This document shows, in pieces, positions 1,402 through 48,976 of a stretch of 64,000 nt of DNA; position 1 is the first letter of the stretch; the number at the start of each line of letters is the position of its first letter. Origin of the DNA: Chrysogorgia sp. JL179-B06 (taxonomy: Eukaryota > Cnidaria > Anthozoa > Scleralcyonacea > Chrysogorgiidae); contig JAYKKM010000504.1 of NCBI GenBank assembly GCA_035772405.1, positions 913,501-977,500 of the forward strand, given 5' to 3'. The position numbers were made by a program, and so were the translations under genes. The notes under the pieces were generated by a model that did not search any database, was not told the DNA's origin, and was given only the letters and a program-made list of their open reading frames with translations.

Positions 1402-2124
1402 CCCTTACGAAATTGTAACATATTTAAAACATATTTAAATATGTTTAAAATATGTTTCAATACTCGTAGTTAAATTGGAAACATGTTTAAAACAGGTTGC
1501 TCTATTTTTGTCAAAAGTTGGATATGTTTTAAACATGTTCCGCAGATATGTTTTAAACATGTCACTATGAGATATGTTTTAAACATATTGCGTCACTAAG
1601 ACTTGGTCTTGCATTATTGAGTTCTATATAGCTAGCTGTCTTTACTGTTTTAATTAAATCAATGTTTCGCATAAATTGGTAGATATATCATTAAAATTTT
1701 GAAATCCAAATACATAGTCCCTCCAATTACAGTAGATGCAACAACCTCGCGCATTAGCCAAAAAATAAGCTGACAAGTTTACAATGGTATTAATAGAACT
1801 GCAGTCATTAATATATTAATGTTTTTCTTCTCGTCTTTATCTTTATGAAATCTTTTATTCACTGCCCGCAAAGGATTGTAGGAAAATCGACAAGTCGCCA
1901 GCTTTTAGTAATGAAAAACAATTGAATAGCTGATTTCACTAATATCATAAAAGAAATTGAATGCATCATTGTCTTTATATATGCAGGTTGTCTACACACC
2001 AAATCTGTCTAACATAATACACGTGTCACCAATATCCTCTTCTAAAAGCTCTGAACATGCTATGAAAATGCCGACCGGACTTTATTCCCTAACATAGCAC
2101 GTGATCAGAGTGACACGTGATGTT

Positions 2125-2447
2125 ATGGCGCGCAATATTTCGTATTCGTCGCTTCGCGATTTTACATGTTCTGCGTCCGAAGAGATCAGCTCGCGTATCT
2201 TTATAACTTTATTTGACGTATGAAACCTATCTAGAAGCCAGATGAAATACGTATTGATCCACTGGACTTCTACCAACTAGACGACTATCCTTACTGAAGA
2301 TTTTGTTCGCGATTATGCTCGTTATTCCGAAGAAAGAAGGCATGGAATTAATCATGCACTGTTGTTTTCTCAAAGCAGTGGTCAAACGGTCAAACCGCCT
2401 AAAGGTGACTGGAAAGCGTATCTGGGGCGCGTAATTGCTGCGACTGG
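2125..2447 (+). pseudogene. Exon-like coding remnant inside element A
   Basis: An ATG at 2125 opens 32 codons (MARNISYSSLRDF...). After a frame change the next stretch reads KYVLIHWTSTN, an in-frame TAG, then TTILTEDFVRDYARYSEE, and runs open to a consensus-like splice donor (GCGACTG|GTGAGT, exon end 2447). Its composition is protein-like, with a K-Y-V-L-x-x-W start and a later W-K-A-Y-L-G-R segment. I do not recognise the family with certainty; it resembles N-terminal modules of proteins carried by large animal DNA transposons. Broken by one frameshift and one stop. Confidence 0.4.
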
Positions 2448-3028
2448 TGAGTTGTATATAATTTGTTCATGACTTTGGCGATAATCTACTTCTCTCTTAA
2501 TGTTTAATAATACTTATATTTGTATTTCATAATTGCGAATCGCCATAAATTTTGGACGGCATTGATATATTCGTCGAGTGAGTACTGAGTCGCTGTTCGT
2601 ATAAACTGGGATGAAACATTTATATTGATCAGCTTTCGTCAATTGCTCATAAGACCTTTGTAAGTTTGCTGAAAAGGTTTTATGAGCCAGTTAAGCCCCT
2701 GAAGGCTGAAGGAAAATGCACCAATATTACTGTAGAACTGTTTATTATATTAAATCTTGCTCTTCATGAAAGCAATTTATAAACTGATTTAATTCTAAGA
2801 GAAACTGGTTGCTGGTTGGAACTTAGTTATGACAATGTTGAAGTTATAGCTAATGAACGAAAACTTTGAGTGTGAAGATCCAACTGAGATGGGTTGTGAA
2901 AAATAAAAATTCAAGGCAACAAGTTCAGTATTATATGATGGTGGTATTAATGCCATTATGAAGTGAATGGGGATATTTTACTGAGAATATTTGCATTTAC
3001 ACTACATTAATTGGATGACATATTAAAG

Positions 3029-3091
3029 TTATAGTGAAGGAAAATTGTAAGTGTGATAAACCGACTGGAACCAGTTGCGAAAAATGCAACT
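3029..3091 (+). repeat. Fragment of the SINE body seen at 57.3 kb
   Basis: GTGAAGGAAAATTG and CCAGTTGCGAAAAATGCAACT match the inner part of the SINE at 57250-57425 in the same strand sense (that SINE reads on the minus strand). A more diverged stretch at about 2863-2915 may be another remnant. Both lie inside element A. Confidence 0.55.
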
Positions 3092-4972
3092 ACAAGACTA
3101 GCCTGTGTCACACCCCTGACTCGTCTCGGTAAGAGTAAGTATGAGTACTTACAAGAGTAATCCTGTAGACTTTCCTTGGAAAAAATATGTGTTGTTATGT
3201 GTTTAAATTTTAACAATGAGAGACCTATTATTCCTCTCTAAAAAAGTCCCCTCAAGTCTTTAATAATACTTTAAGGTTTTTGTTGAAATCTAAATTTAGA
3301 GTGTACGTACTATAACACCAAAGCCATTGGATAATTATCATTCAATGGCATCAAGACAACCAACAAACTAGTGCTCGACTATCGCCAATGCTGATTCTAA
3401 TTGGCTATGCTACTATAAGTCTATTTGTAATAGACCACAAAAAGTGATAAGCACCGGTTTTGAAAATCAAAACAATGCAGAAACTTTGCGGTTTGTCTTT
3501 AAAATAAAAAATAAATTTTCATATTTTAAGTTTGACTGACTAGTTTGTTGATACTAAAACAATTAACTTGTGATGAGCGTTAGATAACTATGCTTGCATA
3601 GAAAAATTGACTACTATGTTTATCTGCCTAAATGTATCACTATGGATCTGGACTATAGGTCAATGTTGTAGGTCAAGCGAGGGGTTGATTCTGCATTCTC
3701 ATCTCTAAACTTCTCTTTCATTATTTCCTTTCAAATGAAAAAGTAATTAATAAAAGCAAGTATTTAGGGCTACAGTACTGTACCTTTTCACTTGAATTTT
3801 TTAAAAATACCTCTAGAAATATCTCTTTTATAGGACTACCATATATCCCTCTTATTAATATTTTAAAATTTATATATTTCTTTATTTTCAGCTCATGTCC
3901 TGAAGCACTTCTCTAACATGTTATTGAAACAAAACATTGATAATATTACTGTAAATTTCGTGTTTTTAGGGAAAATTGATAGAAACACCACGTTCAGTTA
4001 TTTCTTGCAAAACTCTTAGCCTTTGACACTGACTCATGCCTTAATTAGACCTATAATTCCTCTGATGAATTAGGACAGAGTAACTAGGTCCACAGCTTAG
4101 CAGGATATAAATAAACAGTGTTTCAACCAAATATTGTTACTAATTAGTTTTAAATGGGCTTTTAGTGAAATATGTGTGCGAATTACTAAAACAAGATGTT
4201 AACCTGGGCCAGTTGTTTGAATGTCCATTAATTGGGCATGATAATATCATGTTTACCTTGATTAGGACCTGTAATATACTATTGAGAAATATTTTTTATG
4301 TAGATTTCAAAACCTACCAGTATGTTGTTGACATATTTAGTTAATAAATTATTGAACTTCTATTTTTGTTTCTGTGTATCATTCAGGAATCATTCAGAGA
4401 ACATTGTTACTTTGCACAACTTGTCAAAGAGTAGAATGAACCTCATAAAGGAGTAGAAATGACCCAAAAATGAAATGACCCACTTTTTGATCATATAAAC
4501 AGACATTTACTAAACCAACATCATTGCAGTCAGCTAGCAAACATATATTGCACTTGAAGAAGTGTCTACAAATATAAATGTTACTTTCTAATTCTCTTTT
4601 AGACCTTTTTCTTGAATAGTTTTTATACACTTAGTTTCTATTGAGAATATTAATTTTGCAATTTATTATAGTATTTAGATTATAATAAGTAAAATTATTT
4701 GCATATTGTAATTGTATATATTTTACAACAGCAATATATGTTTAAAATATGTAAATGAGAATATGTTTAAAAATTGTTAAAATTTGTATTAAAAACATGT
4801 TTAATGTTCGAATTTTATAGTGTTTTTTTTATGTTTTAAACATAGATAAAACATATATCAAATATATATTTTAAATATGTTTAAAACATATTTTAAATAT
4901 ATATTGCTAAACATGTTTTAGATATGTTTAATTTTGACAAGGGAGTGTTAATACTTAATATATACATTGCTG

Positions 4973-5115
4973 TAGTGAATAAGGGAGAGCTCGGGGGGAA
5001 ACAGACGATACAGTACATGGATGATTGTCAAGCAAGCTCATATCCTCAGAAAAATTATTCTGTGTCCCGGACATGGATAACTTTCTGATTTCCAGTGAGA
5101 TGCTCTGACCATTCA
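4973..5115. repeat. Diverged half of the T-arm palindrome family
   Basis: GGGAGAGCTCGGGG, GACGATAC, CATGGATGATTGTCAAGC and the CTCAGAAAAATTATTCTG stretch align with the left arm of the palindromes at 23336-23756. Here the second arm is missing or replaced. Confidence 0.6.
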
Positions 5116-5303
5116 AGAGCTACCAAGACACAGATGGTGAGTGAACGTTACATTTGTGTACTGATTCTATTGATATAACAGCAGTGTATATATTAACACA
5201 CCCAATCATTAGTCATTACTGAAATATATAGTAACTGGTGTGCATAGGCAGTACATATATCATTAGAACCAGTGCATCATTGTAACCTCTCCATCTGAAT
5301 CTC

Positions 5304-5372
5304 GATGGCTCAATGGTTAAAGGCCGTCACTGGCAATAAGAAGGTTATAATTTTTTCAACCAGGAATATTAT
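5304..5372 (+). repeat. Degenerate tRNA-like SINE head
   Basis: GATGGCTCAATGGTTAAAGG resembles a tRNA A box (TGGCTCAATGGTTA), but the expected B box downstream (about 5343-5365) is eroded. It is not a functional tRNA: no acceptor stem can be drawn. Confidence 0.4.
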
Positions 5373-5399
5373 GTTTCTGACGATATGATCTTGACGTCC

Positions 5400-7700
5400 A
5401 TGTTTTGTATACTGGCATGTATTCCATATAACTGTATAATCTGTGTTTACAGTACGCCATCCATTATGGAACATGTTAGACCTACAGTACAGTAGCTGGC
5501 CTAGTGGGTCACAACTTATTCTGTCAATGTAAAATACAGCTTATTATTATGTTCACATTGGGTATGTTGACACTACTGTGTGTGTTAGCTAGATCATTGT
5601 CGACAAGCAGACTAGGCATGGCATGCTGAATATAGGTTATAATACAGTATATATGTGCAGTGGTGCACGGTGATATAATTTAGATACTATAGTACACAAT
5701 GCCATATATATGCTTTGTTACATGGCAAATATGGTATCTGCAATCTGCATTATTATTATTAGTATTATTATTGTTAATGCATTATTATTAGTAGTATTAA
5801 TAATAATAATACAATAATATTTATACAGGATAGCCCCTTCAATGCTAACACTGGTATCAATATATGGTGTCTTTTTTTCTAACAAATTACAGTTGTTACA
5901 AATTTCAACACATATTCACAAATGTACAGTACAATGTTACAAAAACTAATTTTAACTCAAAAGTTGTATATCCTTCACATATTGTCAATTAAGGCAATAG
6001 ATAATGGTGCTATAACATGTATGAACAGATTAATTGAAACATGGAAAATAGCTCTTTACTGGTAGATATGATGTTAAAATGCCATGGAATTTCCTAACTA
6101 GCATTACACAATGTAACTTGCTTCTAATACAAGAGGTACAAAACTTAGGAAAGATCATTTTTCCTGACATGCATAGAGACCTCTGATTATGACCATCAAT
6201 ATTTAGTTATCCATATTCCTGCCAGCTCCATGTCACAGTAGTCCAATGTGGGTAGAATTATCAACTTACTGTACCTTGGAGTAGAATCCCTAATATGTCT
6301 TAGTAAATCTAATTTGAATGGACCCCTATACATTTGCAATATATGCATGCCATCCGTCGACATTTGAACAAATTTGATTTTTTTAAAGGACACTCATTGT
6401 GTGATAGAGATGCACTTTCTTCCTTCAACAGCCTTTGGTGTCCATACACACAATAATGCATTGATTATTTCGTGAGTCATCAATATTGTGATAAAAGTAA
6501 TTTCTTTCTTAGTGATTGATGGTAGAAACAGCAGTAGACCCCCCACTATTCTGTTGCTGCACTCAAAAATTAAAAAGTTTAATTGGGCTGCATGTATTTA
6601 TTTTGATGTCCTATGAAACAATTAAATTCAGACAATACAAAGCTCTGAGAGATATTGTCCACTGAAAATTTATTTACTGTAGTTTGGCAAATGAAGTGGC
6701 TATTATCTAATTCAAGTAATTTAGAACTAAAATAAGTACTGTGCTAAGTTTCAAACAGCAATTGGGCGAGGGGTTGTTGCGTATACGTATTTCTAGTATA
6801 TGTCTAAATAAGCCGGAGAATACAATGGAATTTCCTTCCAACAAACACAAGGAAATTACTTCGTTTAACATCTTTAAATTAACATGTTTAACTATATTTT
6901 AAAAAGTGACATCGTTTGCCATATTTGTAATTCTTGAATCGTTTCACTTTCTCTATCATTCACATCTGTATTATAGATATGATCTTGAAAATATTATTAG
7001 TTATTGTTAGATGTAGTTATATAATTATAAATACTGTTCATACTGTTTATATTTGTACAGCAAAAGGAGTATTTTTAGAATGAAAGTTTAAATATTAAAC
7101 TTATAGTAAATATTAACGACCTGCAGTTCCATTCAGTTTCAACGCTTACAGATCTTCTTTCAGTTTTCGTTGCTTAAAGCATTGAATTCTATACACGAGT
7201 TCCGGTTGTAAATCTAAATATTTAACATTACAGAAATATCCCACAAATATCCTGAACGCTTCTCTATAAAATGTGCCATATAGTTAGTTTAATAGTATTA
7301 AATTCTCACTATAAACATCGACGACATTAGTAACACAAGAAGAATCTTTGCGGTCTACAAAAATTACTGGATATGACAACTAAATTGTTTGTTGAAAAAG
7401 TAAGTAGCATAGTGTAAAATTTGACTTATTTTTCTGGTTTCGGCGTGCATGATAAACTGGTTGCGGATCCGATTGAAAAGTTGATTAAATCTCTAGTATA
7501 GCATTCAGACATACCATCAACAAATGAATTAGGTCATATATCTCAAGCAGCAGAATATTGTATTCGAAATAGTGAATCATGGTTTGATCGCAGGGGTCAC
7601 GGACGTTAAAATTTCTAAGATACAAACCTTTATAGAACATCAACGCAAAGCTCAAATAATGAAACATCAAGTTGAAATTTGTTAACTTATCTTAATATAT
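5400..7700. other. AT-rich non-coding stretch, nothing recognised
   Basis: Only short random open frames and an ATT/TAA-rich patch (about 5747-5815). A 35-bp motif at 6771-6805 (GGGCGAGGGGTTGTTGCG, then CGTATTTCTAGT) recurs inverted at about 16521-16556 and directly at about 50119-50153. No gene is supported. Confidence 0.5.
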
Positions 7701-7720
7701 GCTGCTAATTTCTTGCAGAT

Positions 7721-8117
7721 TCTTGAACATATTTTGGTAGTATTGTACGTGATGTGCGTTATCTCAGACCAGGGTAAAGTGACAGGAACTTCTACTTCAT
7801 GTCTTGCAAAAGCAATTACGACTTTTAAATCTGAGAGAGATCCACGTATCATAACAAGTTACTTGTGCAAATCAGGTTGCCAAAGCGTCTCAGCGACAGT
7901 TTCCTACTTGGAAAAAGTAACTAAAGACATTGTTATAGGATGCCTACCAAACAACCTTGCAAGCAAAATAAATCAACAAGTTTTTTTCAGAAATAACGAA
8001 AAAATAATCAAGTGTATAAATTCTTCTGCTGTGACCGTTTCGTATCCAGTTGTGAAGCGAATTAAGCAGAATAAGTTGGTTACACAACGAAAGAAAATAG
8101 TTATCGGATGTATCTAG
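7721..8117 (+). CDS. Possible exon of an unrecognised protein
   Basis: A good splice acceptor (CTAATTTCTTGCAG, ending 7720) precedes about 131 open codons to a TAG. The product is basic and Ser/Thr-rich with several Cys (LAKAITTF, SYLCKSGCQS, VSYPVVKRIKQNK). Its composition is more protein-like than its neighbours, but I recognise no domain and find no further exons. It could be a transposon remnant or chance. It is listed because the length and the acceptor together are unusual here. Confidence 0.3.
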
Positions 8118-8594
8118 TGAACTGATATATATGCTCACGAGTGGAAAGATCGAGGATTTTAATATTGTACCAAAGCATGTTAGATTTTTCAGAGAGCCTA
8201 TCCAAGAATATTTACATATATGATAATTTAGATGAAGTCGCGTATAGCGTAGAAGTTTGGCGTGTATTCTGGATAGCTTCAAAGCTTCTGGGTAGCACAT
8301 ATATACACACCATATATGTACAATTTAATTAATTAATAATTAATATAATATTTATGATTATTTGTGAATTTAATGTTCAATAAATACATTTCAGTTTTCG
8401 CATTAATTTTGTCTAATTATAATAAATTGTTTGCTACTCAAACTTTGCTACCCCGTCTGTGACTCATAGTAATTTTTCTGAGTTTGCGTTGTAGCTTGAG
8501 TAGCAGACTATACTTTATCAAATAATTTTACTCTACGCGCGCTGTGGTTGGTCAGCTTCCCGGTCTCGATCAGGCTAAGGAGACCGGAATGACG

Positions 8595-9150
8595 TGACCA
8601 TAATGAATGGGCAAAGACCTGGCAATTAGACTTTAATATTACCAAATGCTACCATCTGGGAATTACAAACAATTAAGGTGATCCCTGCTTCTTTTAACTA
8701 CCTGATAGATAAATGGCCGTGCTATCTCCAGAACAGACTCAACTAAATACCTGGGAATCACAATAATAGCGTAGAGTCTGGCTGCTATTAATAGCTAAAA
8801 AAGCGGACAAACAAACCAAATTTGACTCACAAATGATTGCAAATGAGCTATTTCTAATTTTGTTATGGTCGCAAGAATTATGGGTAAAAGCGGAAAAACA
8901 TCGGTACTGACGTCATCTCGACGGAGCGCTATTAAAAAGCTTAATTGGAATCAGCATTGCGATAACATCTGTAAAAAAGCAAATGGTACACTTGGACTTC
9001 TGAGACGAGTACTGGGGGATTGTGCAGAGATGTGAAAAGCAAGGCATATTTAACTCTTGTACGCCCTAATATGTGAGAAAACCATTTACGAAACGCATTT
9101 CTGCCAGATTGTCCATGACATCCATAACCCCTAAAAAGAATACAGAGAGC
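8595..9150 (+). pseudogene. LINE reverse-transcriptase C-terminal fragment
   Basis: Disjointed frames read WQL-x-FNITKCYHLGIT (8610-8670), STKYLGITI (about 8735-8765) and, after about 160 unrelated bases, WNQHCDNICKKANGTLGLLR (8946 onward), then a stretch like KAYLTLVRPN. This is the usual post-catalytic region of CR1/Jockey-type RTs (thumb and connection: N-x-x-K-C, KYLG, GLLRR). It is broken by stops, frameshifts and an insertion at about 8770-8930. It is a dead fragment separate from the LINE at 11.7 kb. Confidence 0.7.
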
Positions 9151-9266
9151 TAGCGTGATTAAATGCGATGTAAATAAATAGTGTTTATATAGCATCACAC
9201 AACTTTGATCACACAGATCTAACTTGAAGAGGTTGTTTCGTATTAAATAGAAATATTAACACTTAC

Positions 9267-9736
9267 CAATGGCTTATGCAATGTGCTTCGTCGACTACAA
9301 TTCCAAACACACGTTGTTTATAGATGTGTTATCCAATTAACTCCCTCATGAGTTCATTGCTGAGCAGCGATTCGGGAGAGGAATATACAATGGTGTAGTC
9401 ACCAGACTTGAGTCTCTCGTCATCAAAATATTTTTCCGATAAGGATATAGCACTTATTCTTTGCTTTCTCAACTGAGTGACCTGCTCTTGCATGAGGGTA
9501 ACCAACGGGCTTATGACCGGAACAATTGGATCCATACAAAGAGCAAGCTGTTTTACCACTAAAGGAGCCATTTGGTAAATCAGCGATTTACCAAAACCTG
9601 TTGGCAGGTTAACGAATACACCACGCTTATAAATGAAGCTGTACAAATATTCCAGTTGTTCTTGTTTCAATATATCAATTGAAAAGATCTGTTTAACATC
9701 CTCGACTGCTTTAAGAAATCCTTCGTAATCGAACAA
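9267..9736 (-). pseudogene. RecQ-like DNA helicase, one exon with an in-frame stop
   Basis: The minus strand encodes the N-terminal half of a superfamily-2 helicase: a motif 0-like region (residues 18-35), Walker A LPTGFGKSLIYQ (about 44-55), motif Ia VISPLVTLMQEQ, and, past one in-frame TAA (9329-9331), DEAHCISHW (motif II of RecQ). The W codon is split by a splice donor (TG|GTAAGT, exon end 9267). The frame before and after the stop is continuous, so a single nonsense change broke it. No ATG opens the frame: it starts at TTG, and a stray T in ACATTG may have destroyed one. RecQ proteins unwind DNA 3'-5' using ATP. Short intron-poor RecQ-like copies are often multicopy in cnidarian genomes and may travel with transposons. 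Later exons are not found nearby. Confidence 0.75.
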
Positions 9737-9802
9737 TGTTTACGAAATTCTCGGCATGAAATTAAGTATACAAAATAAAGCATTTTAACCAATCAAATGC
9801 TG

Positions 9803-9899
9803 CCGGCGAATTTCCGTCGGCAGCTGTACGGCATTAGTGTTGATTGATCGCAGACTGTTTCTCTTCCGCTCCCGCGGGGGGGGGGGGGGGGGGGGGGGG
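9803..9899. repeat. GC hairpin and poly-G tract
   Basis: CTGCCGGCG and CGTCGGCAG (about 9805-9830) form a short hairpin around AATTTC. A 24-base run of G follows at 9876-9899, next to GCTCCCGCG. Such runs can form quadruplexes and are prone to sequencing error. Confidence 0.6.
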
Positions 9900-10037
9900 T
9901 GTGCGGGCGAGAGGCAGGCTGCTATCGCAGACTAAAGTTGTTCGAATTGTTGCAGAAAGTAGACTATAGAATTCTACGTTCTGCAATGATTGGAGAAACT
10001 ATTTTCAGCATTGCACAGTGAACACCCGCATATGGAA

Positions 10038-10160
10038 CTTGTCTCACAATGCGAAACTTTGCGAGTCAAGTGGCACTTATATCGTTGCCTGACGTAACAC
10101 CTCCTTTCATGCAACTGCAACGTAGCAGATTAAGCCATTGCGAGACAAGTTGCACGAAAA
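10038..10160. repeat. Inverted repeat (fold-back)
   Basis: AACTTGTCTCACAATGCG at about 10038 is mirrored by CATTGCGAGACAAGTTGC at about 10137, with a 70-100 bp spacer that includes partial inner pairing (AACTTTGCGAG). Probably a small fold-back element; no target duplication was identified. Confidence 0.6.
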
Positions 10161-10169
10161 ATTGCATAG

Positions 10170-10880
10170 TTTAACACCACCTTAAACATCCCGGACTGGA
10201 ATCTGAAGCTGCGTTACCGGACGAATTTGGATCCTATATGAAATTCGTGCGGTTAGACCTTGCGTTTTCACGGATCTGCTCTACCCGGACTAATTTCGTA
10301 CCGCCTAACCTGACTAGTTTTATACCTGCAAAAAAGCAGGTCTACTTTTGTATCCGGTGTCCAGTACCAAATTCGTTCCAAATTCGTTCCAAATTAAACA
10401 CTTTCGACCGAATAAATTTGGTACCAATGTCACTTTTTAGGATTGAGCCCTAGTGAGATTTGGCCAGGTAACCTAATTCGTTCAGAAAGAGTATATTTTC
10501 GTTTTTGTATGTTGTTTTATTGCTTTTTAATCGAAAAGTTGTCACTACTAACAGCATGAGAAGACAAGTATTGTGCATTGTTACATTGATGCTTGGTATT
10601 CTTGCATCAATGGCATAATTTTTTCTCCCGATGATGTTAAATATGTCTGCTTACCAAATTTCACATGACAGCGAAATTTTAGAAACAGTTGTAGCGTCCA
10701 TCCTGACATTTTCTCCTTTTTGTCTACTGTTTGCTTTGGTTTCGAAATTTTATCAAGTTAAGGCGAGAAGTTATGAGTGTTAATCGACATGTTATGTCTT
10801 GATCAGTTCTCGTGTGAACATTTACGATTTTTGTGCGAGAAAAAGGCAGTACTTTCCTTGTGATAGTAGACAGGCTACTG
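10170..10880. other. Intergenic stretch, nothing firmly recognised
   Basis: Contains two adjacent copies of CAAATTCGTTC and several short palindromes (GGATCC, TTCGTGCGG). The 71-codon frame at 10238-10453 has no domain. No promoter or RNA gene could be defended. Confidence 0.4.
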
Positions 10881-10903
10881 GCTACGTATCTTTTATCTGA
10901 TTC

Positions 10904-11409
10904 GTGTTATTTTCTGTTTTAGGAGTCTTACAGGAAATATTTGTGAGTTCATCACTTGTGACAGTTTTGTTGATCACAGGAGCCATTGTGTTCGCGGGGA
11001 TTAAGAGTTCTATCAGATACTTATTGTATGGTATCACACAACATAAATTAAACGAAGCCATTAGTTGTACTCGTTCGTCCAACTCGCCCGTTGTCGTTGA
11101 GGAAACTACAACTCGCCCGTTGAGGCAAACTATAACTTGTCCGTTGAGGCAATCTACAACTACACAGCTACTGTATAAACACGAATCACTTGAAATGGGA
11201 GTAAGGATTGAGCAAATATACAGAGCTCGAATTGGTCCCCACAATATCGTTGCAAAAACCAAAGAGGATATTAAATCTCGAAGGTATTATTTGGAATGCA
11301 ATAGCAATATTAATATTATTATTATTCCGCTGTGTATTTTTAATAGTCTATCGTGTATGTTGCACTATTGTTAAGACTGGCAAATGATGTTGAGGAATAT
11401 CCAGGACCT
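10904..11409 (+). pseudogene. Transposon N-terminal remnant ending in a degenerate 2A-like motif
   Basis: An open frame (10904-11374) carries a hydrophobic segment (VTVLLITGAIVFAGI) and a Thr/Arg-rich repeat (TRPLRQT, CPLRQST). In another frame, immediately after its stop, the sequence reads VALLLRLANDVEEYPGP (ending 11409). This has the hydrophobic lead-in and D-V-E-x-x-P-G-P of a 2A translational-skipping peptide, except that Tyr replaces the essential Asn. It lies directly upstream of a LINE with a proper 2A-like motif, so it is probably the N-terminal part of a related or nested copy. One frameshift separates the two parts. Confidence 0.5.
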
Positions 11410-11953: not shown

Positions 11954-11980
11954 GGAAATATAGAGGTTAATCCTGGTCCG
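11954..11980 (+). other. 2A-like ribosome-skipping peptide
   Basis: Codons read GNIEVNPGP, preceded by LLCVLMLT. This fits the 2A consensus (D/N-I/V-E-x-N-P-G-P with a hydrophobic lead-in), with Asn for the usual Asp. 2A-like peptides at the N-terminus of APE-type non-LTR retrotransposons are known from several marine invertebrates. There they release the upstream peptide co-translationally, and N-terminal versions can act as signal sequences. The upstream part here does start with a hydrophobic, signal-like segment. Confidence 0.8.
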
Positions 11981-11998
11981 CAATATAACTACAAATAT

Positions 11999-15652: not shown

Positions 15653-15659
15653 TTTATAT

Positions 15660-16050: not shown

Positions 16051-16052
16051 TA

Positions 16053-17905: not shown

Positions 17906-18882
17906 GTACACTGTAAAAACGGAATGGTTATTTCAACCAATTAAATTGGTTATAACCAAATCAAATTGGTTGAAATAACACACTCAAAATTGGTTATATA
18001 TTAACCAATGTAAAATGGTGGATTCAACCAAAAAACAATGATTAATGTAACCAATAATAATAGGTGGTTAGTATAACCAAATGGAATTGGTTAAATAACC
18101 CGGTTTAAATTGGTTAAAATATTAACCAATTGGTAGAAATAACACACTCAAAATTGGTTATATATTAACCAATGTAAAATGGTGGTTTCAACCAAAAAAC
18201 AGTGATTAATGTAACCAATAATAATAGGTGGTTAGTATAACCAAATGGAATTGGTTAAATAACCCGGTTTAAATTGGTTAAAATATTAACCAATTGGTAG
18301 AAATAACACTCAAAATTGGCTATATATTAACCAATGTAAAATGGTGGTTTCAACCAAAAAACAGTGATTAATGTAACCAATAATAATAGGTGGTTAGTAT
18401 AAACCAAGTGGAATTGGTTAAATAACCCGGTTTAAATTGGTTAAGATTAACCAATACACAATGTTACTATCAACAAAAAACAATGGTCAATTTTAAACAA
18501 ATTTAATATTATTTTAAGTTATATACATTATAACACCGTTTCAATCAATTTTACTCATTCCTGATTGGTTAATGACCTCAATATTAAAATATTTTTTTAA
18601 AATAACATCCGGGATGTTGGATTTTAATATTTACAAACATCAGTTTTCCCGCTTCTTTGTAAAATTTGGTAAACTATGAATTCGCATAAAATTGATTGAA
18701 AAAGTATTAAAAGGAAATAACATTTGTTCTCAAAGAATTAATGAAAAATCACACTTGTGTTTGGCGAAATACTAACCACATGTGGTATTATGAATATTTC
18801 ACCTAACACACATGTGATTTTTCATTAATTCTTCTCAAACTGTGTTATTTCCTATACTAATACATCATATAAATTATATACA

Positions 18883-19227
18883 TTATATAATACATATACT
18901 GAATCTTGGTGCAATATAGTAAGCACCATTTCTGTGTTCAGTACCAAAAGGATGAATTACATGTGCTGGCATATATGTCAGAAATTCTTTTTGTGAGGAA
19001 AAGAAATTATCACTAATCGCTTCGCTGCAAACTTTAAAAGCATGAAAATGTGGAACAAATTCAATTGTAGTAAATTTTGTCAGATAAAAAATAACATTAT
19101 TCTGCACATTGACAACAATGTTTTTAATCAATGAAAATTCAGGAATCTGGTCATCTGATATTCCAGTAGATACCACAGCTCCTACTCTATACTCTGTACC
19201 ATGGATAACTATACACATTGTTTTCAA
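18883..19227 (-). pseudogene. Transposon-associated protein remnant in element B
   Basis: 114 open codons, starting at an ATG (MKTMCIVIHGTEYRVGAVVS), with SDDQIPEFSLIKNIVV and EFVPHFHAFKV. The pattern G-T-x-Y-x-x-G-A-x-V plus a later H-F-H-A-F resembles C-terminal regions of proteins carried by animal CACTA/EnSpm elements. That similarity is from memory and unverified. No catalytic residues lie in this stretch. It runs antisense to the exons at 20.0-20.4 kb. Confidence 0.45.
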
Positions 19228-20006
19228 TTATTTTATTATATTTAAATACAGCAGACTTAAATTACAAATAACTATCACTTATCTGAATATAATTGGCAAG
19301 GCTTTTGAATTTGACTGCATACACAGTATTCATAAATTATGACTATGTTTGATGTTTGGTAAACAAATTTCCGATAAATCACTGCCACTATAAATCATGC
19401 TTCTTTAGTACTGTGGTAAAACTGTCAGTGGAATTGCAAGTGTCTGATATGTGATGGCAAAGCAAAGCACTGACAAAATAAAAACCAGAAATGGTATGTA
19501 ACAGATGTTTCTGGTATTGTTGATCCATTATTTATATTGTCTAACTTTTATTGGAGTTCTTGTTGAGAATACAATACTCTATGTGATGTATTAGTTCATT
19601 GCACATGTGCACGACTCCACATATAATGTAGTTGTCGTTTGGGAATACACCACTGCAACTACTGTATTTTCCCATACCATAGCTATATCTTATGATTTAC
19701 TTTTAGCACACTGTAAGTTATTCCCAGTGTTGGACCACAACATTTTACCAGATAGTGTCAAACATCTAGATTTTGCCCTGGCACATCCCTAATGGCTAGG
19801 TTGTCAGTTGTCACTAACACTTCATACACATAAAGCATCGTGTGTTCTTAAAATCATTAACATCATCTGTTTCCAGTGCCATTGTTTAATTTGCACATTC
19901 AGTTTCTGTATGTACTTTGCACTGATATCACCATAATAGCAATGTTTAGCTTAATAATAATTTAATTATAAAATTGACATGCAAAAAATCCAATTTTATT
20001 CTTCAG

Positions 20007-20358
20007 AAGTGGACAATCGCTGTATTATGGCTGCCCTACCACACCTGCTTGGTGAGAAGAAGTCAACTGACTTTATCGCTGGGGAGATGTTTTGGAAAAT
20101 CATTCTTGTAAGTTTGCAATTCATTTGCACTTTTCAATTTCCATTTAGAGGCACAATATGTTCCTGAATGGAACATTGTAAATACAGTAACTGCCATTTC
20201 TTAGTTTATTTTATAATTGTAGTATAATGACCTAATATTATAGTATAAAATAAAATAATATAAAATTATTTCATGTATAATTACAGGATGAAGGTGATGT
20301 ACAGACATCAATCCATGAGACAAAAGCTCCACGACTGATTTTGACTGGAACATTTTAA
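20007..20358 (+). pseudogene. Two-exon 3' coding remnant in element B
   Basis: Exon 20007-20107 follows a strong acceptor (TTTTATTCTTCAG) and encodes MAALPHLLGEKKSTDFIAGE and FWKIIL before a GTAAGT donor. After a 179-bp intron ending in TTACAG, exon 20287-20358 encodes DEGDVQTSIHETKAPRLIL and TGTF, then a stop. The junction is in phase 0. The family is not recognised; it is probably the second gene of a CACTA-like element. The 5' exons were not found. Confidence 0.5.
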
Positions 20359-21138
20359 ATATTCATTAACTTTGTTTGGCCAATGAGGGCAATGGTCCAA
20401 TTTTAAGCCATTCTCTGTTTAGCTACTAAGCAATTTGTCTGTGAGCCGGGATCAAATTTCAGTCCAGCTTACCGCGCTGAGATTTTAGCCCGGCCAGGCT
20501 GAGACTATCCATGTAATAAGCCCTTTATATAGCACTTTTTGCTGTTAAGAATTTTGTAAACATTTGTAAAACAGGAAGCATTTAGATTAAATTTTTTCCA
20601 TCAAATTTGTGTTTTTTTTTTGTTATATTTCATAAGATGGATAAGATTTGTGTTTTAAATGTTAACCATTTGTGTAATGGTTAATACTACAACCAATAAA
20701 AAATTGTTAAAATAACACACTTCAACCATTTAGAATTGATTACCTCAGATCCACCCTGGGTACTATTCTAAATAGGTTAAAACTACTGTTGTTAATTGGT
20801 TACAACTTCGAATGACCAAATCTAATTGGTCATATACACCCATTATAATTGATCATTTATACTAAAATATAATGGTTAAATCTACTATTGGAAATTGGTC
20901 GTTACAACAATTCACAATGGTAGTTTCAACCATTATAAAATGGTAAATGTAACCATTTAAATGTGGTTAACGACCATTTATTAATTGGTTGTTATAACCA
21001 TTTACAACTGTTTGTCTCAGATCCACATTTCAACCATTTTTTTTTGCTTGAAATAACCATTTCGTTTTTACAGTGTACGCAATATAAACAGTGAAAAGGA
21101 GTTGGCCTTCGAACATTATAAACTTACTTGAAAGCATG

Positions 21139-24192: not shown

Positions 24193-24199
24193 AACACCA

Positions 24200-25493: not shown

Positions 25494-40901
<15,408 letters not shown>

Positions 40902-40919
40902 GTTACAAGAAACTTGCGA

Positions 40920-42230
40920 GGGAAAAACGCTTGAAAAATCCTAATTGAACTAGCATTCTGGATGTTCCATTTTCTTTGTTAGTTAATGTTTTAACCTTCA
41001 GTAACAAGTCACTCGCTGTAGAGAAGACGAAGATTAAATATTAGACGTTATTATTCACTATAACTATATTTTTCTTGTCTATTTTTTCTTCAAATATAAC
41101 TGGGATGGATCGATTGGTTTGATGGGTGATAAATAAATGAAACATATCATGAAAGTAAAGTACTTCCCAATACATACGTTAGCATCAACCTCGTACCCCA
41201 GGGCATTTTGCCTCCACGGGGGAAAGGCGAAAAACGACCGGTCGTTCGATATTATAATCTTATTGACCAGTGTAAAACTCAATTCTATTTCGTCATCAGC
41301 GAAAGAGTGCAGCGCATGCGCCAATCAGTTGTGTGGATCACGCGCCTGAATACAGCCATGTTTGATTATTTGTGTCTGTAAATAAGCAAATCTGTCACTA
41401 AATTATTCCTCTAAATCGCCGAAACAAGCCTGGATATACTGTGTCGTTGGAAACCTTTATCATCCAGAATATTACAAGCTTAGCATATTGTTGATGTATA
41501 TGTAAGATTTGCTTTTGTGGTTCGGTCATGTCGAACGACGAAACCGTACAAGTACTGGATGATGTAACGAATGAGGTTGAGAATTCATCGTCAGAAAAAG
41601 TCTTGAACCTCAGAAACGCGATTTCCCGCATTCTGAGAGAATTTTACGTTCAAATTTTACGCAAAAACAAAGAACCAAATATCATAATTTACAGAAAATT
41701 TAACGTTATCCATTTATCTCACGTACATGTATATCACAATATCAAACCATGATATTGTATGATGATGTAAATCATGATATACAGTACACGTTTTGGACCA
41801 ATTGTACGCAAGCAGATCACGAGGAGCACTATAAACACATCAAATGCCTCTAATATTTTACCATAGAGAGTGAGTAAATACTCATTTCCACTCCAGGCGG
41901 ATACTTTCAAATTAATTTTTCTATCTAAGACAGAAAAATAAATTTAACACGCATCCTCCAAGAGGCAATCAGTTCAATCAGTTTATATACGTGTTGGATT
42001 CTCAGTTGACCAAGCAAATGGACTGTTTAATCAGTTTATATAGGTGTTGGATAATCAGTAGACCACTGAAGCAAATTGAACAGTTTAATTAGTTTATAGA
42101 CATGTTAGATGAGCAGCATTATGGGTACTCTCTCCATCGCAAAGAGAACACAATGAAGGAATAAAGCCCCATCATATCCACACTAGGAGTAGGCAAGCCA
42201 AGGGAATTCTGAGAACCACCTGTATTGAAA
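40920..42230. other. Region downstream of PLA2; possible small first exon
   Basis: Holds the presumed PLA2 3' UTR. An ATG at 41528 opens 74 codons (MSNDETVQVLDDVTNEVENS...) whose first 30 residues are acidic and protein-like. It may be a first exon, but no donor or continuation could be settled. ATCAGTTTATATANGTGTTGGAT repeats loosely three times at about 41976-42105. Confidence 0.3.
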
Positions 42231-42234
42231 CTTT

Positions 42235-42816
42235 CTAGACAAAATCAAGATGTGGCTGAGTTATACATGTATTGGTTAAATACATGTTATTGGTTATAGA
42301 CATACATATATTGGTTGACAACTTATACTTTTCCTCATCACTAAAACTTTTAACATGTAAACAAAAGTGGCCAATGTCACCTTTGACAATGGCTTTGCAT
42401 ATCTGCGAGTAGATTATTTTCATAATTGCATGCTGAAGAGGATGGCTGGTTTGGAGAAGAGCTTCAGATTTAGGTAGCACATTATCGTCAATTGTGGTAA
42501 CTAATTGAGAAAAATGGTTGGATTCATCTAATGGCTTAGGTACCTTATCAGCAAAATGAGCAATTGTGAGCTGCTTTCTCTTGTTTGTTTGTATGGGAAC
42601 TGGTACTTTGATGCTTGGGGGCTGTATAGCAGAAGTTGTACATAAGGAATTTTTGGCTATTGTTAATTCATAAGACTTCACAAAACATGAAGGAAGGGAA
42701 AACTTTACATCTTTAAGATTTACTGGCATAAGAGGAACAAAGTGATCTTTCTTTTGTTGGAGTTTTGAGGTTGAGATATAGTCCAAGGGCACTGAAGCAC
42801 AAAGGAAAATGTGCAT
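42235..42816 (-). CDS. Unrecognised protein, 193 codons
   Basis: An ATG start and a TAG stop on the minus strand. This is the longest uninterrupted unassigned frame in the window. The composition is clearly protein-like: FSLPSCFVKSYELTIAKNSL, IKVPVPIQTNKRKQLTIAHF, ADKVPKP, HPLQHAIMKIIYSQICKAI, HFCLHVKSFSDEEKYKL. It looks like an internal or C-terminal part of a larger transposon-associated protein: there is no signal peptide or membrane segment, and upstream bases on the minus strand contain early stops. A His/Cys pair (FCLH) is not enough for a zinc finger. No family assigned. Confidence 0.5.
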   Translation of the reverse strand: MHIFLCASVPLDYISTSKLQQKKDHFVPLMPVNLKDVKFSLPSCFVKSYELTIAKNSLCTTSAIQPPSIKVPVPIQTNKRKQLTIAHFADKVPKPLDESNHFSQLVTTIDDNVLPKSEALLQTSHPLQHAIMKIIYSQICKAIVKGDIGHFCLHVKSFSDEEKYKLSTNICMSITNNMYLTNTCITQPHLDFV

Positions 42817-42837
42817 TGCAATTTAAGGCTCTAATAA

Positions 42838-43200
42838 ATGGGTTGTCCCAGGACAGATCCACATCTCCCCCACGGACGAAATATGCCCGCGAGACTACAT
42901 GCCCCCGGGCCCGTCCTGTCTCTCGGCGGCCCAGGCATCATCCCGTCGTGGAGTAATAGTTTACAGTATCGACCGCCGTGCAACTGCCACAAGGTCGCTT
43001 GCTTCAGTCATAGCGTCAGTCTGCGTCAATCTCATTGGCTTGCTTCAGTCAGATTATGCGCGGTAGCATTTTCATTGGCTTGCTTCAGTCAGATTTGAAC
43101 TGACTGAAGCAAGCCAATAGCAGAGCTTCTCAACGGACACTTACTGAAGCAAGCCAATGACAGAGCTTTCCAACTGAAGCTAACCTGCACACAGGTTCTC
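42838..43200. repeat. GC-rich patch followed by GGCTTGCTTCAGTCAG inverted repeats
   Basis: 42840-42960 is unusually GC-rich (CCCCCGGGCCCGTCC, CTCTCGGCGGCCC) with no recognised product. From about 43000, CATTGGCTTGCTTCAGTCAG occurs twice directly and is then mirrored as CTGACTGAAGCAAGCCAAT and a further copy at about 43144. This makes a multi-arm fold-back. Confidence 0.65.
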
Positions 43201-43654
43201 CAGAAAGGCGGTTAACCCGACTTTGTGCGCCCACGGAATTAGGCAGCGGTAATCATAGCAATACTTCAACTAATCCAATCGAAAGGGTCCACTAGCCGAT
43301 AGACTGGGCATGAAAACATGCCGGTCAATTATAATATAATTATTACTTGAAGTACACGGGTGGATTCAACAGAAACAATCGCGGGGATATAATAACTCGG
43401 TATTATAAAATGTCAAATGCACCGAAACTCGGATTAAAAAAAATGAAAAGAGTAAAACATGCATTTGACATTGCAATGAAGAAAATCGTGGAGTAGAAAC
43501 ATTTTATTTATAGTGTGGATTTTTTAGTCGAAGCTCAAAATCTGACTGACGCTTAAGCACCAGTTGCACCAGTCTGGATCCGCCCCTTCTGAGATTAGCG
43601 AGTAGTCGCCTTCCACTGATTCTAGTTTCTAGTTTGATATCAGTCTTGTCTGAG

Positions 43655-43970
43655 ATGAAAAGAAGTATGATGGTTAACAACAAACTGCTTACTTCCTTTG
43701 TCAACAACGAGACTGAGGACCTTGACCGTAATGATTTGGATGCCGAGGCTGACCATGATAATGAAGTTGATTTGTCTCTGTCAATGAAAAATTGGCTAAA
43801 CTAGTTAACGAAAAGTTTACACTTGATTTTGATCTTCCAAAACGTAAAGAGATTTCTCAAAAGTACAATGTACCAAAAATTTGTGAGAACTTATATGTAC
43901 CTCGTGTAAGTATGGAGATTTGGGGACGTTTAAGTCCCCGTGCAAAAAGAAGACTGATATTTAAGAAATA
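43655..43970 (+). pseudogene. Gag-like fragment, probably of a DIRS-type retroelement
   Basis: Frame 1 from the ATG at 43655 encodes an acidic stretch (NNETEDLDRNDLDAEADHDN...) to TAG at 43802. After a one-base shift the sequence continues KLAKLVNEKFTLDFDL, ICENLYVPRVSMEIWGRLSP. The pattern N-E-K...C-x-x-L-x-V-P-x-V-x-x-x-I-W resembles cnidarian DIRS-type Gag proteins (from memory). It is cut at the 3' end by insertion of the palindromic element at about 43962. Confidence 0.45.
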
Positions 43971-44340
43971 GAAAACATTTTCCGTGTTTACATACAGTTA
44001 TATAAACACGAGTGGAAGTTTGGGAGAACGAGAAATCATAGTGGGAACACGAGCCCGTAGGGCGAGTGTTTCCACGCGATTTCGAGTTCTCCCAAACTTC
44101 CACGAGTGTTTATATAACGTATGGGAACACGGATAAAAATGTTTTCTATTTCTTTTGTAAAATAACCAGTAGAAAGCGAATAAAATGTACAAATATATTT
44201 TTTATCAACACGTAAATTCTCCTTACTGCGTATGATGGCGCCGTGATGTCTAATTGATGGCTAATTGATGGCGTATGATGGCTAATTGATGGCGTATGAT
44301 GGCTAATTGATGGCGTATCACGATGGCGTAATCCATCCGT
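43962..44340. repeat. Palindrome plus GATGGCTAATT minisatellite, copy 2
   Basis: Same composite as 16053-16460: TTTAAGAAATAGAAAAC, a palindrome around AACGAGAAATC, ATTTCTTTTGTAAAATAACCAG, then GATGGCTAATT/GATGGCGTAT units, ending in GCGTAATCCAT. It interrupts the Gag-like fragment, so it inserted after that element. Confidence 0.88.
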
Positions 44341-44343
44341 GTT

Positions 44344-44463
44344 ATATTTAACAATTATTCACCGAAGTGGAAGTGAATAGTGGTGGATATTTACCGAGAC
44401 GCGAAGCGTCGAGGTAAATATCCAACCACTATTCACTGACACTGAGGTGAATAATTGTTTTAG
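44344..44463. repeat. Palindrome of about 118 bp with GCGAAGC apex
   Basis: The arms AACAATTATTCACC...GAATAGTGGTGGATATTTACC and their mirror meet at GACGC-GAA-GCGTC (44399-44410). Arm mismatches are few (GAAGTGGAAG versus CACTGACACTGAG). It directly abuts the previous composite element. Confidence 0.9.
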
Positions 44464-44469
44464 CATATA

Positions 44470-45055
44470 CCAAAACAAATTGATAAAAAAGAAGGAAATT
44501 TCGGTTAGTTTCATTATAATTTAGCCAGGAATTGGTGCGAAACGCAAGGCAAAAAATTCCCTCCTTTCCATATTTGGAGTTTGCCTTTCTATATTTGGAG
44601 TTGTTTATCAGTTTTGACAAGCTGACAGCAGCCGGTCGTTTTGAAAACCTTTCGAAGTTGGATCAAAGTAAGGCAAAAGACCACTGGATTTTAACTCAAA
44701 GGAAATATTTTAATACTGTACATGGGAAAACCTGAGGACAAAGGATAACTAATGAATTCTGGGTGAGTAAACGACAGTAATTGTTCTTTTCAAAGCGTTT
44801 TTAATTCGGTCAGTACTCGAGATTATCACCATGGGTGGTTTGGGGGAAAATGTGATTTGCATTTAAAATAGAGTTGCTATAACTAGGAAGTATAAACTGT
44901 ACAAAATGCAAGAGACTAGAGTAAGTAAAAATTGGACTGCACTGATCAAGGAGGCAATTTACTCATGATTTTTCCCCTGTCCTACATGTTGTGTACAATG
45001 TAATAAAACCTGAGGTAAATTTACAAATAATCATAATGTCATTAACAACTACAGT
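44470..45055. other. Non-coding stretch, nothing recognised
   Basis: Contains CATATTTGGAGTT twice with one change. No gene. Confidence 0.35.
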
Positions 45056-45059
45056 ATGC

Positions 45060-45310
45060 AAATAGAGATGCGAAAAGTTAAATCATTTGCTATTGTTACA
45101 GTCGATTAGAGGGGGAAGGAGAAATGACAGGTCCAATATTAGGGATTAGGCGATATAGTAAAGCAGTAAGAAACAAAAAAATTGAAAAGGAATGAAAGTG
45201 CATACAGTACTGCTAAGAAATAACCTATCACTGCGTCCTCTTCTCGTCTTGCGTTCGTCTTGCGTTCGTCTTGCGTCCGGGGTCGTGACAGACGCAGAAC
45301 CGAAGTTCCT
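45060..45310 (-). mobile_element. Penelope-like 3' fragment joined to a GACGCAAGACGAAC minisatellite
   Basis: 45064-45200 matches the 3' UTR of the Penelope-like copies (GAAATGACAGGTCCAATATT and flanks), minus orientation. It is joined at about 45222 to (CGTCTTGCGTT)n, the same minisatellite that precedes the fragment at 51361. A GAAACGTC stretch at about 45317 may be another decayed terminal motif. Confidence 0.75.
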
Positions 45311-45319
45311 TCTCGTGAA

Positions 45320-46140
45320 ACGTCGGTATCACGTTTATCGAATAGTACTAATGACAATGATCGCCGCGCTCTACGTTGACATCCATAATTGCTGCGGAGC
45401 TTATTTGCAAGAATAGAAACATTTAAAAAAGTCACTGGAACGTTTTTTAGATAATTCCTCAACAATTTGAAAGCGTGTGTGTTTTTCTTTAGAAGAAAAC
45501 TAAAGTCGAGGCTAAAGGAAGCTGTATAGTAAATTCTGGTGTCGGAGTGTTTTATATTACGTAAAAGCAGATAGTAATAATTGTATCAGTGGATGAGTCA
45601 CTGAAATGTGAACAAATGTCAACAGACCTTTTCAATACATATCAATACATACAGCAAATTGTGCGCGGAATTCCGTTAAAATGTTTACTGCGAAGAAATG
45701 CAAAATTTAAATGTGGCAAGACGCCAGGAACTGAAGCGAAACGAGACTTTTAATATAGTGACGTTTCCTTTGGCAGAAGTTTTATTTAAAAAACGGTGTG
45801 GAAATAGATAGTTAAGAACATGAAAACTGACTAAACAACGTTAAAGAAACAAAAACTAATTCTAAACTAGCAGTAGATTTAGTACTGGAGGACCCTAGAT
45901 CTATCTTTGTAATTAATCCAAGGTTACACACGCCGATTTATGTGGCAATATACTAAATAGTGTTGCAAGATAAATCGGGCATCCGCCTGCACATATTGAC
46001 TTATCGGATATTTTTCACTATCGTCCTGCATTTTGGAACGTTTTCTTTTCTGTATTCATGATATAATAATTGTATTGATAAATCCCGTATCAAAAACTGA
46101 GAATGCATTGGTGACGCTAAAATTTGTGTTGAATGGCAAC
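45320..46140. other. Non-coding stretch, nothing recognised
   Basis: AT-rich, with only short open frames of random composition. Confidence 0.35.
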
Positions 46141-46144
46141 GTTA

Positions 46145-48976
46145 CCCTTGTGAAAACCAACACTATTTTTTCCCTACAAAAAAGCTATTTTTTTCAACCC
46201 TATTTTATTAATGGTAATATTATTTTAAACCTATTATAATACTATTTTTTACCTATCACTTTGCTATTTTAAATGGTTTTTTTTGAAACAAAAATAGGCT
46301 ATTTTAAAGTTATTTTATTCTCTACAGTTTTTGTTGTGCCAAAACACTAGGGTTAAAATAGCAATAAAAGCCATTTAAAATAGTTCTTATACAAGGAACT
46401 TAGATTGCAAAATAGCAATAAAATATATTTAAAATAGTTTAAAAATATAGAAATAATAGTAATAAAATAGCAATAAAATAATGCAAAATAGCTAAAAAAA
46501 TTAGTAATAAAATAATGAAAAATAGCTAAAAAATAGTAATAAAATATGAAAAATAGCTAAAAAACAGTAATAAAATAATGAAAAATAGCTAAAAAATTGT
46601 AATAAAATAATGAAAAATAGCTAAAAAAACAGTAATAAAATAATGAAAAATAGCTAAAAAATAGTAATAAAATAATGAAAGACTAAGCTGAAATATAGTG
46701 ATAAAATAATGGAAAATAGTAAGAATAATATACAATAGCAATAATAAATGCTATATACAGTAGTTTGGACAATATATTTACCGGTAACAATTACAGTATA
46801 TACAGAGAACATGCAATGAGCTAAATGAAAGAACAACATGACTGTAACAAGGATTGGGCTGTAATTAATTTATTAGATTATAGTAATAGATAATATAACT
46901 GCTGTTTGCTTTCGGCTTCTTTGTCTTCCAGTATTCTGAAAAACAAAGTATTAACAATATATTATATTATATATAATATATATTATAATAACATATTATA
47001 TAACAACATTGTATATACAATCATGTTTTAAATATATTAAATTTCATGCAATTTTTGACAGCTGCTATACTGTATATGAGTGCATTATGGATATTAATTA
47101 TCTTGGAGTAATCAGGCTTGTTTCTGCTAAATTGCAGTGAATAAGTGGAGTGGGCCAATGGTACTGCCAGAGGTTAGCCTCCTTGAGCAGACGATGTGAT
47201 GTGTTTCTGTTTTACTCCATTCCCTCACTAACGTCGAAAATGGAGTAGTGGAGTACAACGGAAGCGCCTGACAACTGAGATCTGCCTTCTTGTAATTAGG
47301 TGCATTTTCCATTTTCCATACACAAACAATTTAAGAAGATAAACAAGGGAATTTTCACATCCATGCTTTCTTTCATGTATGCTTTCTTATGACAACATTA
47401 AATATACATTGCTTTGTCAGTTAGTGCGCGCATTTTAATACTAGTAAACCAAACAAAATACATAATAGCGCCAAGCCTGCAAGCACGTCGACAACCCGAA
47501 ATCACATTTCTCGATTTTCAGTATTTAGCGAAGGAGCGTATCCCACGGAAAGCTACAAGTGACCTTTCAGACAACTTATCTAGAACCCTAACTCAAAACG
47601 AGTTGACATTAAAGTTCATTTTAATAGCACCAGAGCTTGATGAATGATGGCCGAGATCACTTCTGACTTCGAACACGAAGCACTGTCAACACGCCGTGAT
47701 TTTTCAACGCTAACAAAACCTGGCTTACTGTAAAGGAATTGGTGAAAGCCGTGCGTCACAAGCGATAAGGCGTGTTTGTTGCAGTGTTCTCTTTAAAAAC
47801 TTTACATCAGGGTGGATTTAATTCGCTTCAAAACATCACCTTGACTTCGGACAATCACAATGTATCGTCGGTAATCAACAAGATGTTTACAAAAGAAACG
47901 CGCGTGTTGTATACGTATTACCGCGCATTTTGTTTGATAAATGTATATTCTTAGTCTTACCTTGAGCTTGAGATGATAGGATAAATAGTCAAACGCTGAT
48001 GGGAGAAACTCCTTGTCAAACGACCAACTGATCGGCAAAACATAGACACATGAGATGAAAGCCGCGTCTCTGATGCATTTTGAAATATCCCGCCATGCAC
48101 GCGGACAACCAATTACTGGTTGTCTGGGGCAAACTGCCCCAGTTCTTTTCGACCGCGTCACTAGACGCACGCACGATAGTCTTTTAGATATTTCGATAGA
48201 TATTTTATCAGTATTTTAAAAATATGCTTTCCTCTTCAAATGTAAAATAGGAATTAAACAGTCTATTTTATTCTATTTTGCAGATTAAGAAAGACGATAA
48301 ATACGTTTAAAATAGTCTATTTTATCTGTATTTTAAAAATATGCTTTCCTCTTCAAATGTAAAATAGGGATTAAACAGTCTATTTTATTCTAGTTTGCAG
48401 ATTAAGAAAGATAAATACGTTTAAAATAATCTATTTTATCTGTATTTTAAAAATACGCTTTCCTCTTCAAATGTAAAATAGGAATTAAACAGTCTATTTT
48501 ATTCTATTTTGCAGATTAAGAAAGATAAATACGTTTAAAATAGTCTATTTTATCTGTATTTTAAAAATATGCTTTCCTCTTCAAATGTAAAATAGGAATT
48601 AAACAGTCTATTTTATTCTATTTTGCAGATTAAGAAAGATAAATACGTTTAAAATAGTCTATTTTATCTGTATTTTAAAAATATGCTTTCCTCTTCAAAT
48701 GTAAAATAGGAATTAAATATCCTATTTTATTCTATTTTGCATTTCTGCTGCAATTTATTGTGAAAAATAGCCTTAAAATATGCTATTTTATTTATGTCTG
48801 TGTGAAAATAGTTATAAAATAAAGTAAAACAGGGATAAAATATAGTTCACTAATTTTTAGAAATATCGTGATAGCATTAAAATAGGGTTTTCGCTATATA
48901 AAATATGATAAAAATAGGTGTGATAGTAATAAAATATACTTAAAATAGCAATAAAATATAGTTGTTTTCGTAAGGG
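46145..48976. mobile_element. Element D: 2.8-kb DNA element with AAATAGNAATAAAATA arrays
   Basis: Terminal repeats: left CCCTTGTGAAAACCAACAC, right (complemented) CCCTTACGAAAACAACTA, flanked by TA on both sides (46143-46144, 48977-48978). The left subterminal array (46170-46740) and right array (about 48185-48960) consist of AATAGYAATAAAATA-like units and their mirror TATTTTAT forms. The right array contains five 114-117 bp tandem units. The interior is largely non-coding. On the minus strand a GTAAGACTAAG donor follows an open stretch near 47965, and a 122-codon frame spans 47802-48170. The termini match element A. Confidence 0.7.
48165..48735. repeat. 114-bp tandem repeat, five units, in element D
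   Basis: The start of ATGCTTTCCTCTTCAAATGT recurs at 48224, 48341, 48455 (as ACGC), 48569 and 48683. Each unit contains AAATAGTCTATTTTAT mirror motifs. Units are over 95% alike, which indicates recent expansion. Confidence 0.92.

Follow-up and report, generated by a model that had tools for sequence, protein, structure and literature searches.

In a 64,000-nucleotide stretch of the genome of the cnidarian Chrysogorgia sp. JL179-B06 (GenBank assembly GCA_035772405.1, contig JAYKKM010000504.1, positions 913,501 to 977,500; hereinafter, the window), three large elements, denoted A, C and D, carry long arrays of short repeats just inside both ends. These elements raise the question of which protein recognizes such arrays, which in CACTA-type elements have long been known and are poorly explained beyond a few plant cases. 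The genomic context of the full-length relatives of these elements points to a specific candidate for the protein that would bind the arrays in animals, namely, a protein containing a BEN domain that is predicted to be encoded, at least in some members of this branch, by a second gene located head to head with the gene for the transposase.

The boundaries of the three elements, as given in a first-pass annotation of the window, proved exact to the base: element A occupies positions 1402..4943 (3542 bp), element C 33808..38701 (4894 bp) and element D 46145..48976 (2832 bp), all on the + strand; each starts with CCC, ends with GGG and, as read from the window, is flanked by the same dinucleotide on both sides, AG for A (1400..1401 and 4944..4945), AA for C and TA for D. 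The terminal inverted repeats (TIRs) agree over a short stretch only: among the first 14 bases, 9 match in A and 11 each in C and D. The annotation had suggested a genome-wide search for further copies, and when 781 Mb in 522 contigs were scanned, the ends of all three elements were found to recur. The 17-bp motif of the A array has 77 exact copies, frequently in +/- pairs spaced 3-5 kb, against 2 for the reversed control; the left and right ends of D have 58 and 54 copies, respectively, with at most 3 mismatches, and the left end of C (a 29-mer) has 52 matches, with 0 for the controls of both elements. When the query for the C end was cut to a 17-mer, 320 matches were obtained against 26 for controls, many of the 320 being a chance internal match in copies of A.

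The copies of A were examined in 20 fetched stretches that represent 18 loci and, with the window copy, make 19. Two of these, L020 and L023, are nearly identical to the window copy (99.8% and 99.7%) and have the same boundaries. Both ends are present in 16 of the 19 (an end is missing in L019, L024 and the C412 copy), and the 2-bp flanks match in 14 of the 16 (CA, TG, TT, AT, TG, TA, CA, TA, CT, TC, TG, TT, AT and AG) and disagree in L015 (CC/GG) and L021 (AT/AG). For D, the flanks match in 16 of the 21 pairs of ends that were read, that is, in 12 of 17 fetched pairs plus the window, C61, C243 and C275 copies (AT, AG, TA, TA, TT, AA, AA, TT, AA, TG, TT, TA, TA, TA, AT and AT); the failures are C218 and C21, in which the right end is damaged, C270, and C190 and C363, where the paired ends lie 30-32 kb apart. 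The AA/AA duplication of C comes from the window copy, the sole C copy whose flanks were read. Because the flanking dinucleotides of A and D vary, the duplication comprises 2 bp without a fixed sequence. A, C and D are DNA transposons of the non-autonomous kind, bounded by short inverted repeats that end in CCC and by 2-bp duplications of the target. A Pfam search of their reading frames gave no match above the cut-off, and no coding copy was found among 16 copies of A or in the window copy of C.

One copy of A (L027 and L028, on C437) is 11,685 bp long, with inner units of approximately 200-400 bp tandemly amplified at two places; this copy was considered as an autonomous A and rejected, being A with amplified inner repeats and a longest frame of 134 amino acids. 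Within the window copy of A, a frame at 2281-2469 weakly matches the KOW5 domain of SPT5 (19.7 bits with a cut-off of 27, E-value 0.0006), with GTGAG directly after it, and may be a piece of a captured gene. Three copies of D located 10.5 kb apart (C210:260262, 270759 and 281255) have identical flanks and represent a tandem duplication carrying D.

The arrays themselves differ between the elements. In A, the left array (ATATGTTTTAAACATAT-like) spans 1419..1588 and the right one 4736..4931. In C, the left array consists of an outer block of palindromes (TCTTGTAAGATCTTACAAGA) at 33819..33990 and an inner block of 32-bp units at 34266..34590, and the right palindrome array lies at 38287..38690. 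In D, the left array (46160..46750) is composed of CTATTTTA/TAAAATAG half-sites and the right one (48180..48962) of 114-bp units and outer half-sites. All three arrays had been described as palindromic, and we counted perfect palindromes of at least 10 bp against dinucleotide shuffles. The description holds strongly for C, where the right 300 bp contain 18 palindromes against 0.68 in shuffles, and weakly for A, with 3 against 0.77 in the left 300 bp (the shuffle maximum being 3) and 4 against 2.14 in the right; it fails for D, which has no excess over shuffles (2 against 1.45 on the left and 0 against 1.19 on the right). By these counts, the term palindrome is appropriate for C and in part for A, but not for D, in which, instead, CTATTTTA half-sites point inward at the outer left end, with the complement dominant at the outer right end, as seen in the C243 copy.

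The genes that could serve these ends were found in full-length relatives. A fourth family, E, came to light as a CCC end (CCCTTACGAAAAATTCCTATAGGAATT) with a different palindrome inside a copy of D (L031). E is 18.2 kb long, with both ends found (the right one is one G short) and TA on either side; the D sequence picks up after E, and the insertion site is empty in the D copy of the window. On the + strand, E encodes a multi-exon tnp2 transposase (PF02992, 36.8 bits for the spliced pieces with a cut-off of 28.6, and a sub-cut-off match to DUF4218) that has 404 relatives at E-values of at most 1e-5 in animals and metagenomes; among the 120 matches listed, these include proteins of Dendronephthya (54% identical), echinoderms and fishes. 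The opposite strand, divergent from tnp2, carries a multi-exon gene for a BEN-domain protein, with its 3' end facing the left array. The BEN exon passes the Pfam cut-off (33.9 bits against 23.2) and matches solved BEN domains in the PDB (BEND6, 2.8e-8; 4ix7, 6.3e-5). Both frames are broken in this copy, that of tnp2 by a frameshift and an in-frame stop. When the interiors of A, C and D were searched for homology to the E genes, no match pointed to element genes, the matches falling elsewhere in the window.

A relative of D (C243) is 12,982 bp long, with AT on both sides, and likewise carries a tnp2 transposase (Transposase_21, 42.7 bits) together with a second gene, located close to the left end on the reverse strand. 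The D copy C275 shares an exon of this second gene. Between the two copies, this exon shows a nonsynonymous divergence (dN) of 0.13 and a synonymous divergence (dS) of 1.56 over 65 codons; judging from these substitutions, the second gene of D is under strong purifying selection. C275 was rejected as a clean full-length D since it holds other insertions, including an integrase-like frame. A Helitron was also rejected as the autonomous form of D. Two copies, L029 (C11) and L052 (C363), which have a common flank and were counted as one insertion, combine the D left end with Rep/helicase, RPA-like and long interspersed nuclear element (LINE) reading frames; the D sequence breaks off at 169 and continues from 12157, the two parts overlapping by 6 bp, and the Helitron-like genes are therefore a nested insertion, with the LINE inserted within. 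A, C and D themselves possess TIRs and target duplications, and the Rep/helicase of L029 is nested in a D copy, which sets these elements apart from Helitrons.

These features place the elements in a known class. The TRC elements, an animal branch of the CACTA superfamily described in 2006, have CCC TIR ends, 2-bp duplications and an intron-containing Transposase_21 gene (PMC1636069); the members include SmTRC1 of Schistosoma mansoni and relatives in Tribolium and Aedes, and the 2-bp repeat was present in 7 of 14 copies (PMC1636069). A, C and D share with TRC the CCC ends and 2-bp duplications, and the D and E families share the transposase gene. By structure, A, C and D fall within the TRC branch, as do the D and E families on the basis of their transposases; this supports the earlier proposal of a single superfamily, and the CCC-ended class itself is accordingly not new. 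The difference from the TRC account lies in the large family-specific arrays and the linked BEN gene: the words subterminal and sub-terminal are absent from its text (PMC1636069), and the portion of it available to us names no second DNA-binding gene. Canonical plant CACTA termini are not found in A, C and D, all of which end in CCC. The fungal Plavaka/ESTA elements of the CMCT clade are CACTA-related, and PlavakaA makes 2-bp duplications (PMC12730594); unlike the elements described here, Plavaka has 5'-TGT or 5'-CATCA termini, and no CCC termini were found in the accessible part of that report.

To assess how general the arrangement seen in E is, we compared the genomic positions of 150 BEN exons (150 of 250 candidates scored) and 150 Transposase_21 exons (150 of 215 scored), both lists being exon-based and including host genes. 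For 30 of the 150 BEN exons, a listed tnp2 exon is present at a distance of at most 15 kb; 27 of these pairs are in divergent orientation, 2 on the same strand and 1 in convergent orientation. When the distance is limited to 10 kb, 26 of 27 pairs are divergent. Under a uniform distribution, 0.86 neighbors would be expected, and the counts after shifting the coordinates by eight offsets were 2, 5, 2, 0, 1, 0, 2 and 5. E is missing from the 27 linked pairs because its tnp2 exon ranks below the list. Of the first 71 tnp2 matches, 2 are located near BEN, compared with 30 of the other 79 (Fisher p 4e-8); this split at rank 71 was chosen post hoc and is descriptive only. Conceivably, a few elements captured their BEN genes from the host, in which case the linkage would count copies of captures. 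CACTA elements are reported to capture genes (review, PMC13317346), and several of the 27 pairs are closely similar members of a single family (four at score 44.0) and hence non-independent; however, the 27 pairs show 20 distinct BEN scores and thus do not represent one family, 27 of 30 have a single orientation, and the strongly purified second gene of D does not resemble passive cargo. Capture as the whole explanation accordingly appears very improbable. Tandem BEN exons were also observed, four at C518:2665179-2710961 with a spacing of approximately 15.2 kb and five at C360:1118819-1125225 with a spacing of 1571 bp.

Element ends were sought downstream of six BEN exons, picked from multi-copy groups before the tnp2 search; the sequence was read over 1.35 kb for four of them and over +650 to +1500 for two. 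In four of the six (L088, L091, L092 and L093), a CCC-type end and an array are located 761-1413 bp downstream. The arrays of L088 and L091 are of the form CCCTTACAAAAATATTCTATAGAAT..., that of L092 is CCCATACGAAAATGTTC... (imperfect palindromes), and that of L093 (CCCATACGAAAAAATCCTATAGGAATTC...) has a core identical to that of E; the L093 BEN exon belongs to the 27 linked pairs. The claim that each family has its own array thus extends from A, C and D, the last with its non-palindromic half-sites, to E, L088/L091 and L092. The tails of the last BEN exon read IEKCHKLKK in E and VEKCSKLKK in L089, compared with VVKVMKAK-, VTKVLKAQ- and IVKVINAK-like sequences in L088, L091 and L092, respectively, a hint that these tails might change together with the array motif. 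Downstream of the BEN exon of L090, there is a nested element, presumably hAT-like, with TAGGGATGCACCGG ends, an 8-bp duplication (ATACAAAC) and TTCCGGCCGGAA palindromes.

The presence of BEN genes beside CCC ends with distinct array types in E, L088, L091, L092 and L093 bears on the possibility that it is the transposase that binds the arrays, with the BEN gene serving a different function, for instance in the choice of targets or in interaction with the host. Transposases bind subterminal repeats in other superfamilies, as in the case of the Hermes BED domains (PMC10368747, consulted in part), and the lack of palindromes in D, together with the absence of a clear BEN domain in its second protein, would fit this possibility. 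Nevertheless, the association of BEN genes with particular arrays, and the established sequence-specific DNA binding of the BEN domain, make transposase binding alone an unlikely explanation. Host BEN proteins (NAC1, BEND6, Insensitive/BANP) likewise have a sequence-specific DNA-binding BEN domain, and that of NAC1 is reported to bind the palindrome ACATGT; unlike the BEN gene of E, they are encoded by single host genes that do not adjoin a transposase.

Considered jointly, these observations favor, with a probability of roughly 60%, the reading that A, C and D are CCC-ended CACTA transposons in which the BEN protein of the full-length relatives binds the array of its own family and aids the transposase. 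The tnp2 DDE-type transposase of the relatives would cut at the CCC ends and insert A, C and D at new sites, duplicating 2 bp of nearly any sequence; the BEN protein would bind the subterminal array at both ends and, once bound, may help to bring the ends together or open them for the transposase. In plant En/Spm elements, a second protein, TnpA (beside TnpD), binds the subterminal repeats and helps in this way, and the duplications are of 3 bp. The elements described here resemble En/Spm in the tnp2-type transposase and the subterminal arrays, and differ in having CCC rather than CACTA ends and a BEN domain in place of TnpA; by analogy, we infer that the BEN protein is the array-binding counterpart of TnpA, that its role would lie in transposition, and that A and C would use the same combination of BEN and tnp2.

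Several results weigh against this reading. The search for a partner protein gave none for A and C, no coding copy being present among those examined, and the D array is non-palindromic. The second protein of D has no Pfam BEN match at E-values of up to 1, aligns with the E BEN protein no better than shuffles do (259 of 500 as high) and has as its best PDB matches the NAC1 BEN domain at non-significant E-values of 0.53 and 0.68, so that this protein is suggestively BEN-like only. The spliced E BEN protein has no relative at E-values of at most 1e-5 among 1621 candidates. For 120 of the 150 BEN exons, there is no listed tnp2 exon within 15 kb; no CCC end was found within 1.35 kb downstream of L089 and L090; and the closest listed tnp2 exon to that of L091 is 14.5 kb away and convergent. 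Under a strict rule of at least 3 perfect 12-bp palindromes, 3 of the 6 BEN exons pass; among the 12 CCC-type matches in the window, a single one does, namely, the right end of C itself. Hence the earlier proposal that each family has its own DNA-binding protein has gained a credible BEN candidate from E and the tnp2 linkage, whereas for D the candidate is BEN-like only and for A and C there is no coding copy.

The BEN protein could also bind the array and serve the expression of the element, through anti-silencing or the formation of boundaries at its edges. BEN proteins are reported as chromatin and boundary factors, including at fly boundaries, the VANC proteins of plant VANDAL elements function in anti-silencing (PMC10398659, consulted in part), and the position of the BEN gene next to the array would suit autoregulation as well. 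Yet A, C and D, although gene-less, have retained a large array at either end, which suits mobilization in trans, and we consider a role in expression possible but rather unlikely.

The gene for a BEN-domain protein beside the transposase is the new feature, which we have not found described. Among the papers listed by a literature search, with subscription papers and Repbase reports outside its scope, there was no work on BEN proteins in CACTA/EnSpm elements; the listed publications pairing the BEN domain with a transposase or DNA transposon include, by title, none on BEN genes of CACTA elements. If the role in transposition is correct, the pairing of BEN proteins with arrays would explain how distinct families can have nearly shared short CCC ends, and the many natural protein-array pairs make the function of the arrays directly testable by binding assays. 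The BEN-bearing elements also suggest a possible source of host BEN chromatin factors. A more speculative extension, which we regard as doubtful, is that a fast-changing BEN protein and its array form a lock and key that makes the ends of a family private, and that host boundary and repressor BEN proteins descend from such transposon proteins.

Other parts of the window contain a CAC-ended element (17911-21077; ACACTGTAAAAACG...CGTTTTTACAGTGT) with subterminal AACCAATT/AATTGGTT repeats, a like layout in a CACTA-type element with different ends. One window gene has as its only named relatives proteins of the octocoral Dendronephthya (36-42% identical). Fold-back repeats built of TGGACTGATAAAACA units are located at 39271-39713 and 27070-27430, the former with ACTATTTCTG on both sides, possibly a 9-10 bp duplication.

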